Assembly: GCF_903969135.1 (NCBI RefSeq)
Contig: NZ_LR824569.1
Coordinates: 1 to 64,000, forward strand
Length of the DNA: 64,000 nucleotides
Direction: 5' to 3'
DNA from: Chryseobacterium sp. JV274
GTDB lineage: Bacteria; Bacteroidota; Bacteroidia; Flavobacteriales; Weeksellaceae
How positions within the stretch are numbered: the stretch's first letter is position 1; each line of letters begins with the position of its first letter. Positions 48,739 to 52,403 of the stretch are shown here, piece after piece. The position numbers were made by a program, and so were the translations under genes. Under the pieces are notes generated by a model that made no database searches, was not told the DNA's origin, and saw only the letters and a program-made list of their open reading frames with translations.

Positions 48739-49350
48739 ATGATTCCAAATTTTAAAGCACATCCATGGCACGGAATTTCTGCAGGAGAAGATGCGCCAAA
48801 TGTTGTAAACGTATTTGTGGAAATTGTTCCTTCAGATACTATTAAATATGAAGTAGATAAAGAAACAGGATACTTAAAAGTAGACAGACCACAGAAATTT
48901 TCTAACATCATCCCTGCTTTATATGGTTTTGTTCCAAGAACATACTGTGATAAGGAAGTAATGAGACTTGCTGTAGAAGCAGGAGCTACGGATGTTACAA
49001 TGGGAGATCATGACCCTCTTGATATTTGTGTTTTAAGTTCTCACAACATCCATGCTGGAGGTTTATTGATGGAAGCTATTCCAATCGGAGGTTTTAAAAT
49101 GATCGACGGAGGAGAAGCTGATGATAAAATCGTTGCAGTAATGATCAATGACCATGCTTTCGGACACTTCAGAGATATTTCTGAATTACCAGAAGCAGAG
49201 GTAAAAAGATTAATGCACTACTTCCTAACGTATAAAAACCTGCCGGATGAGCCTGCTAAATGTAGAATTCAGGAGGTTTATGGAGCTGAGCATGCTAGAA
49301 AAGTGATTAAAGCTTCTCAAACAGACTACGCAGATAAATTCGGAGGATAA
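48739..49350 (+). CDS. ppa: Family I soluble inorganic pyrophosphatase
   Basis: The 203-residue enzyme hydrolyses pyrophosphate to drive biosynthesis. Family I features are present: IKYEVDKETGYLKVDRPQKF with substrate-binding Lys and Glu/Arg residues, YGFVPRTYC, MGDHDPLDICVLS with metal-binding Asp residues, GGFKMIDGGEADDKIVAV, and KNLPDEPAKCRIQEVYGAEH near the C-terminus. It is longer than bacterial hexameric forms of about 175 residues. The gene lies about 320 bases before the membrane pyrophosphatase gene, so soluble and energy-conserving PPi hydrolysis are encoded side by side. Confidence 0.95.
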   Translation: MIPNFKAHPWHGISAGEDAPNVVNVFVEIVPSDTIKYEVDKETGYLKVDRPQKFSNIIPALYGFVPRTYCDKEVMRLAVEAGATDVTMGDHDPLDICVLSSHNIHAGGLLMEAIPIGGFKMIDGGEADDKIVAVMINDHAFGHFRDISELPEAEVKRLMHYFLTYKNLPDEPAKCRIQEVYGAEHARKVIKASQTDYADKFGG

Positions 49351-49670: not shown

Positions 49671-52403
49671 ATGGATCTATTTGTGTTAGTGCCAATTTTT
49701 GGTGTCGTCGCTTTACTTTATACATTTCTTCAGAGCAACTGGGTAAATAAACAGAATGCAGGAAATGAAAAAATGAAAATAATCAGCGGCCATATTGCAG
49801 ACGGTGCAATGGCTTTTCTAAAGGCTGAATATAAAATCTTAATGTACTTCGTGGTGGTAGTCGCCATTTTACTCGCCGTAATGGGATCAAGTAATGCCAA
49901 CTCGCATTGGAGTATCGGTATTGCCTTTGCAGTAGGAGCTGTATTGTCCGCATTAGCAGGTTTTATCGGGATGAAAATTGCTACCAAAGCCAATGTCAGG
50001 ACAGCTGAAGCGGCAAGAACTTCACTGTCGAAAGCGCTTAAAGTATCTTTTACAGGAGGTTCTGTTATGGGAATGGGGGTTGCCGGACTTGCTGTTTTAG
50101 GCTTAGGAGCATTATTCCTGATCATCAAACAGATTTTTGCACCCGATGCCACAGTAGATTCTCATGAAATGGAAAAGACCATTGAAATTCTCACAGGGTT
50201 TTCTCTAGGTGCAGAATCCATAGCACTTTTTGCAAGAGTAGGAGGCGGTATTTATACAAAAGCGGCAGACGTAGGTGCTGACCTTGTAGGAAAAGTAGAA
50301 GCCGGAATCCCTGAAGATGATCCCCGAAACCCTGCAACGATTGCAGATAACGTAGGAGATAACGTAGGTGATGTAGCAGGAATGGGAGCCGACCTTTTCG
50401 GGTCTTATGTTGCAACAGTTCTGGCAACCATGGTGTTAGGTAGAGAAACTATTTCCGATGATGCCTTCGGTGGTTTTGCTCCAATCCTTTTACCGATGCT
50501 GATTGCAGGAACAGGAATTATATTTTCTATGATCGGAACTTTATTTGTGAAAATTAATGATAATGAAGGCTCATCCACTTCCAGTGTACAGAATGCTTTA
50601 AACCTTGGAAACTGGGGAAGTATTGTTATTACAGCTATATCATCTTACTTTCTGGTAACTTATATCCTACCTGAAAAAATGGTTCTAAGAGGCCATGAGT
50701 TTACTAAAATGGGGGTATTTGGTGCCATCATGGTAGGATTGGTTGTAGGAACTTTAATGAGCATCATAACAGAATACTATACCGCAATGGGTAAAAGACC
50801 GGTTTCCAGTATTGTGAGACAGTCTTCTACAGGACACGCAACTAACATTATCGGAGGTTTATCCGTGGGTATGGAATCTACTTTACTTCCGATTATCGTG
50901 TTGGCAGGCGGAATCTATGGATCTTATCTGTGTGCCGGGCTTTATGGTGTTGCCATTGCAGCAGCAGGAATGATGGCTACTACAGCTATGCAGCTGGCAA
51001 TTGATGCCTTTGGACCTATTGCTGATAATGCCGGTGGTATTGCCGAAATGAGTGAACTTCCCAAAGAGGTACGTGAAAAAACAGATATCCTGGATGCGGT
51101 AGGAAATACAACTGCAGCTACCGGAAAAGGATTTGCTATTGCTTCAGCAGCTTTGACAGCATTAGCATTATTTGCAGCTTTTGTTGGAATTGCAGGAATT
51201 GACGGAATTGATATTTACAGAGCAGATGTTTTGGCTGGTTTATTTATTGGTGGAATGATTCCGTTTATCTTTTCATCATTGGCAATCACTGCAGTTGGGC
51301 AGGCTGCCATGGCGATGGTGGAAGAAGTAAGAAGACAGTTTCGTGAAATTCCGGGAATTTTAGAAGGAAAGGCACAACCTGAATATGAAAAATGTGTTGC
51401 TATCTCTACAGATGCCTCCATCAGAAAAATGATGCTGCCTGGTGCTATAGCAATCATTTCCCCACTCTTAATGGGATTTATTTTCGGTCCTGAAGTATTG
51501 GGAGGATTTTTGGCTGGTGCCACGGTATGTGGTGTTTTGATGGGAATGTTCCAGAATAACGCAGGAGGTGCCTGGGATAATGCTAAAAAATCATTTGAAA
51601 AAGGGGTGGATATCAATGGACAGACCTATTACAAAGGTTCAGAGCCACATAAAGCATCTGTAACAGGAGATACGGTTGGAGATCCTTTTAAAGATACTTC
51701 CGGCCCATCCATGAATATTCTGATCAAGTTAATGTCAATTGTTTCTTTGGTTATTGCACCTACTTTAGCTGTTTTGCATAAAGATAAAATTGAAGCCAAC
51801 AGAAAAGCAAAAATTGAAAGCCTTACCGGAATATCTGCCGCTACAACGGCTGGTCATGCAGATCTTACAACAGTTCCGGTTTCCCCTGGTGGAGTTCAGG
51901 GACATCTTAATGAAAGTGGCGACTTTGTGTATGAAACAGGAAATGTTCAGAAAATAAAATTGGATGGAGGAAAAACGATTGCCATAGGAGATGGAAGCCA
52001 GCTTTATCAGCTTTATAATGTGGTGAAACAGAAAGATAAATCTGCTTTAGACCCTAATAAATGGTACACCATTGAAAACCTTTATTTTGAAACAGGTTCC
52101 AGTGACCTGAAGGCAGGCTATGAACTCCAGCTGAATACTTTAGCGGAAATCTTAAATGCATATCCTGATCTGAAAATAAAATTAGGCGGATATACAGATA
52201 ACAGTGGTAATGAAGATAGTAATCTTAAATTATCAAATCTGAGGGCACAAACAGCAAAACTTAAATTACTCGAGCTGGGTGTTTCTGCAGACAGAGTAGA
52301 AGCTGAAGGATATGGTTCACAGCATCCGGTATGTGAAGCCAATGACACTGATGAGTGTAAAGCAAAAAACAGAAGAATTGATGTAAGAGTTCTGGCTCTT
52401 TAA
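49671..52403 (+). CDS. hppA: Membrane proton-pumping pyrophosphatase fused to an OmpA-like domain
   Basis: The 910-residue protein couples PPi hydrolysis to ion pumping. Residues 1 to about 700 are a complete H+/Na+-PPase core: [20 protein letters not shown], the PPi/Mg loop [20 protein letters not shown], and [19 protein letters not shown] with Ala482 predicts K+ dependence. Glu182 in LGAESIALF, with Gly in DLFGSY, suggests the Flavobacterium-type H+ pump (from recalled family rules). Residues about 702-797 are a linker and 798-908 an OmpA C-terminal domain: [34 protein letters not shown], with the Asp and Arg that bind diaminopimelate. The fusion would tie the pump to peptidoglycan; the known periplasmic C-terminus of the pump fits this. 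Confidence 0.94.

Follow-up and report, generated by a model that had tools for sequence, protein, structure and literature searches.

The locus examined here raises the question of why a membrane pyrophosphatase (M-PPase), an enzyme of the inner membrane, would end in a domain of the type that grips peptidoglycan. In the window, that is, the whole 64-kb stretch of Chryseobacterium sp. JV274 DNA that was analysed, a single frame on the forward strand (49671-52403) was open for 910 codons and encoded one protein of 910 aa, matching an earlier reading of an uninterrupted course from pump through linker to OmpA domain. Specifically, Pfam PF03030 (H_PPase) was matched at residues 12-695 along the complete profile (1-645 of 645; E 9.8e-272, above the curated cut-off), and PF00691 (OmpA) at residues 805-901 (E 3e-17; 63.2 bits against a cut-off of 27.2). 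The pump core, comprising residues 1-700 (49671-51770, forward strand), additionally scored 1265.9 bits against NCBIfam NF001955, for which the cut-off is 1059. This was the single pump gene in a host genome consisting of one contig of 5.23 Mb, and the best named relatives of its product, among the best 120 of 1288 matches, were Chryseobacterium proteins.

That two genes had been joined here by sequencing or assembly error is practically inconceivable. Both PF00691 and PF03030 were present in all of the best 120 of 1288 proteins that matched residues 690-910 (the window's own among the 120), with identities of 82-100% over the matched region, and all 51 fusion-length members of the host's family checked by domain search, the window included, were fused; the two-gene or artefact reading was ruled out on these grounds. 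Within the family, the pump was found in 124 of the 197 genomes examined. By row count, 110 of these 124 had frames of fusion length (906-959 aa), the 59 outside the domain search being called fused by length alone, while 11 had intact, shorter frames of 729-777 aa and three had fragments or lay at a contig end. For the window's genus, a pump was listed in 47 genomes, at fusion length in each, and three further members were listed without one. Eight of the 11 intact unfused loci were fetched (G446, G459 and G476 were left out); none of the eight pumps had an OmpA domain, and no OmpA-like frame of at least 50 aa, such as a separate OmpA gene beside the pump would give, was found in any of these eight loci. 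Relatives thus carry the architecture in one frame and, judged by these comparisons, the fusion is genuine and common in the host's family, so that the junction artefact raised by the first-pass annotation does not apply.

The pump type was read from the ion-gate positions. Alignment with the V. radiata and T. maritima chains placed Glu182 (50214-50216, forward strand) at position 5.43, Gly244 at 6.53 and Ala248 at 6.57. Ala482 and Gly485 correspond to the K+-dependent type, with Ala rather than Lys at residue 482, which we take from its motif to be position 12.46; four rows of the genome alignment had Lys/Thr and were of the K+-independent type. In the homologue alignment, Glu was present at 5.43 in 40 of 49 rows, and Ser at 5.43 together with Glu at 6.53 in 9 of 49. 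Among the fused genome rows the Ser5.43/Glu6.53 gate was seen only in a Rubricoccaceae row (L064), and the single gap in the gate columns of the genome rows came from L077, a partial copy of the window. The passages on ion gates in PMC10897367 describe Glu at 5.43 for the unusual F. johnsoniae proton pump, and those in PMC10897367 and PMC6882861 present this glutamate as semi-conserved in H+-PPases of that type. In this combination of Glu at 5.43 with Ala at 12.46, and with no Glu at 6.53 or 6.57, the window pump resembles the F. johnsoniae-type K+-dependent H+-PPases; relatives that share the glutamate at 5.43 but are unfused end in tails that are either short or unrelated. The name of NF001955 reads sodium-translocating, for which the gate residues give no support. 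Because Glu occupies 5.43 and is absent from 6.53 and 6.57, proton pumping is better supported as the predicted specificity than the sodium-translocating NCBIfam name, and E182, G244 and A248 fit the proton pump that had been claimed at the outset.

We then considered where the tail lies and how it is joined to the pump. The first-pass annotation had proposed predicting the structure of the full chain; an AlphaFold model built from a 49-row alignment of the window protein and its homologues (mean pLDDT 76.1, pTM 0.69) comprised a helical pump, a flexible linker at residues 704-753 (51780-51929, forward strand) with pLDDT below 50, a small block at residues 754-796 (51930-52058, forward strand) with strands at 759-763 and 769-773 and a helix at 777-786, and an OmpA C-terminal-like domain from about residue 797 to 908 (52059-52394, forward strand). 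In a Foldseek search, M-PPase chains took ranks 1-36 with TM (target) values of 0.86-0.90, placing the pump core in the M-PPase fold, and OmpA-type domains followed from rank 37 onward among the 50 matches listed. In the model and the alignment, the catalytic loop (approximately 655-681) was followed by a single helix and then by the tail. Because the catalytic loop of M-PPases faces the cytoplasm and one helix precedes the tail, the tail is placed outside the inner membrane, and the C-terminus is periplasmic according to both, as had been claimed.

The same geometry bears on wall-linked regulation, in which binding to, or pulling on, the OmpA domain would alter pump activity and the state of the wall would control pyrophosphate energy conservation. 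The last helix, from which the tail directly emerges, carries lysine 686 (presumably the gate lysine 16.50 in the numbering of PMC10897367), and the OmpA part is more conserved than the linker; both would suit such control. However, the roughly 50 residues of pLDDT below 50 between helix and module would transfer force poorly, the stretch between position 695 and the Asp of the OmpA domain varied from 119 to 213 residues (median 148, 54 rows), and absence of the domain is tolerated in relatives, so that we regard this regulation as very unlikely.

The OmpA domain itself aligned with 3td5, an OmpA-like domain with a bound peptidoglycan peptide, at a TM (target) of 0.82 and 32% identity (Foldseek). 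The Asp of TDNSG and the Arg of LSNLRAQ, which the first-pass annotation had singled out as diaminopimelate ligands, were located at residues 843 (52197-52199, forward strand) and 858 (52242-52244, forward strand). Throughout the 54 distinct fused genome rows (55 rows less L077), the Asp843 column was Asp and the Arg858 column Arg; among the 49 homologues, Arg was present in all and Asp in 48, the exception being P0195 with Glu. The Arg is thus invariant and the Asp nearly so. By their spacing, 15 residues in both proteins, and by the 3td3 alignment range, they are the equivalents of the A. baumannii OmpA residues Asp271 and Arg286, for which the relevant passages of PMC5974059 and PMC12108004 describe diaminopimelate binding. 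The diaminopimelate-binding C-terminal domains of A. baumannii OmpA, Pal and PA0833 have the same fold, the same Asp/Arg pair and the same spacing, but there the domain is borne by an outer-membrane barrel or a lipoprotein and here by an inner-membrane pump. Across 18 genus members, mean dN/dS was approximately 0.022 for the pump, 0.24 for the linker (residues 701-750), 0.14 for the block and 0.060 for the OmpA domain, values that are rough in that dS is near saturation and was obtained for 78-147 of 153 pairs. By this measure the OmpA domain is under purifying selection.

An OmpA fold is by itself no proof of peptidoglycan binding. OmpA-fold domains have other partners too, relatives tolerate the absence of the domain, and P0195 departs from the canonical Asp, all of which would agree with the domain being a passenger that no longer binds peptidoglycan, or a dock for a protein partner. 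The invariant Arg, the nearly invariant Asp and the low dN/dS of the domain nevertheless argue that the canonical site is in use, and we consider a passenger or docking role unlikely.

On balance, the protein is probably an ordinary proton-pumping M-PPase that is tethered to the wall in a flexible, non-covalent and likely twofold manner, with the peptidoglycan binding, like the transport specificity, being what we infer for this pump from its residues. It would belong to the F. johnsoniae type of M-PPase, K+-dependent and pumping protons, and would have acquired a linker and OmpA module at its periplasmic C-terminus. Hydrolysis of pyrophosphate in the cytoplasm would drive protons outward, like in other M-PPases, and the flexible linker, about 50 residues long, together with the small block would bring the OmpA domain to the peptidoglycan, where it would hold diaminopimelate with no covalent bond. 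M-PPases are homodimers, and each pump would therefore have two grips on the wall. Pumping probably does not need the OmpA domain, since some relatives are without it, and the benefit is most likely that the pump is restricted or positioned, rather than that its catalysis is changed. Against the tether stand the apparent dispensability of the domain, the fast evolution of the linker, and the one homologue with Glu for Asp, together with a recurrence that may amount to few events and the lack of OmpA tails on the pumps sampled in other phyla.

Regarding the source of the module, its closest relative seen was a protein of the host's own genome with a DUF937-TM-OmpA arrangement, 49% identical and without a pump. 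Additionally, in sister genera, five OmpA proteins that stand alone (216-242 aa) matched the linker block and OmpA domain together at 40-46% identity, again with no pump. These five proteins bear out the likeness to flavobacterial OmpA proteins that had been noted for the linker block, and the occurrence of the linker and OmpA unit on other proteins agrees with the proposed capture of a whole OmpA-type module.

The first-pass annotation had also suggested mapping the taxa that carry the fusion, and beyond the host's family it was present in Spirosoma, Larkinella, Fibrella and Rudanella, as well as in the Rubricoccaceae, where the Rubricoccus protein had a weak BON match ahead of the OmpA domain (26.8 bits, just below the cut-off of 27). 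On the pump tree, which was built without L077 and without L043 (at a contig end), the fused label took eight changes. The OmpA-tree origin tests comprised 79 rows, the long-branch rows L081, L125 and L136 having been dropped. In the OmpA tree the Rubricoccaceae domain grouped with L124 (support 95), an OmpA protein that has no pump, and a single OmpA clade of the window group and Rubricoccaceae was rejected (p-AU 0.026, a test weakened by the groups having been named after the tree was seen). For these reasons, the Rubricoccaceae fusion is apparently a separate capture. The groupings that were not rejected, likewise named post hoc, were A+B (0.472), B+Spirosoma (0.363), A alone (0.403) and A+B+Spirosoma (0.093). 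Most of the other Bacteroidota fusions may accordingly share one origin with losses, and because such a common origin was not rejected, the recurrence may come down to few events. Loss of the domain is likely in the unfused L057 and L058, since on the pump tree they group with their fused genus-mate L083 (support 98) and they end in a linker-like stub. In other phyla, a K+-insensitive query returned 103 named loci, and 0 of the 80 pump frames of the best 80 gave an OmpA match; some of these loci were cut by contig ends, and the pump type was checked for part of them. In the class of genome G794 (Thiospirillum locus L159), the pump was present in 206 of 369 genomes, and none was fused among all 10 listed rows of at least 745 aa and two shorter ones, all fetched; the published Burkholderiales fusions are not among these.

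A soluble inorganic pyrophosphatase gene (48739-49350; PF00719; NF001886, 310.7 bits against a cut-off of 247) lies outside the fusion, just upstream of it and in the same direction. Of the fused loci, 53 extended 1000 bases or more ahead of the pump, and such a gene was present upstream in 34 of them (34 of 40 within the window's clade), as it was in all four fetched loci of the unfused genus g179. The pump tails of g179 are cysteine-rich, the fetched members (L059, L060, L061 and L094) being without OmpA, and the linker of one fused protein (L039) holds a cysteine motif similar to these tails. Pumps of family f4 (L070:2060-4516, reverse strand; L071; L072) end in a tail of another kind, approximately 100 residues long, for which Pfam gave no match in L070. 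Because the f4 pumps bear this different tail, the M-PPase C-terminus seems to be a site at which periplasmic extensions collect. Finally, L103, L104, L105 and L106 formed a strongly divergent group of PF03030 proteins within the phylum, with frames of 810-901 residues and altered catalytic-loop motifs.

The combination had been described by the first-pass annotation as not standard, and this held in part. Our literature search on OmpA-tailed m-PPases and the Chryseobacterium pump returned one relevant paper, PMC11210485, and no paper on Bacteroidota fusions. Table 2 and the Fig. S4 legend of this 2024 review place an OmpA-related C-terminal domain on the m-PPases of Paucibacter sp. KCTC 42545 and relatives, with its role left to be elucidated; the five table rows are Paucibacter, Burkholderiaceae, Pseudomonadota and Betaproteobacteria entries, with no Bacteroidota among them. 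The Paucibacter protein, as described there, is 810 aa long and predicted to be K+-insensitive, and it shares with the window pump a C-terminal OmpA domain on an m-PPase. By that published description, the window pump differs in its Ala at 12.46, which is of the K+-dependent type, in its Glu at 5.43, in the extra block ahead of the domain, and in its family-wide distribution. The idea of an OmpA-tailed m-PPase is therefore already known, and the Bacteroidota fusions are an added variant.

OmpA-type tails are also found on other energy enzymes, which further limits the claim of novelty. A photosystem I subunit of 872 aa (PDB 7f4v, chain aB), which we take to be from Gloeobacter, has an OmpA-like tail matching the domain in the window (E 9.4e-8); like the flagellar stator MotB, this chain belongs to the energy machinery of the membrane and ends in an OmpA-like domain, but the membrane parts of both are unrelated to the pump. 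A cytochrome c oxidase subunit II with a C-terminal OmpA domain (PF00116, PF02790 and PF00691) was seen at L135:305-1834 (reverse strand), and a second protein of the same family f5 (L138; G064:C22:686394-687884) aligned over residues 1-508 of the 510 of L135. Only these two oxidase subunit II proteins aligned into the OmpA part among the matches listed (214 matching genomes, 247 examined). That wall attachment is part of enzyme control, the tail coupling proton release and activity to the state of the peptidoglycan, with the same solution reached more than once by fusing OmpA to inner-membrane energy enzymes such as the pyrophosphatase and cytochrome oxidase subunit II, is an idea we find quite improbable.

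Most work on M-PPases treats them as dimers free in the membrane. Within the phylum sampled, the tail seems to have been gained on at least two occasions, and it is also reported, in the tabulated entries of PMC11210485, from Burkholderiales. If the tether to the wall is true, a wall-binding tail that is family-wide and under selection would mean that the position of a primary ion pump relative to the wall matters.
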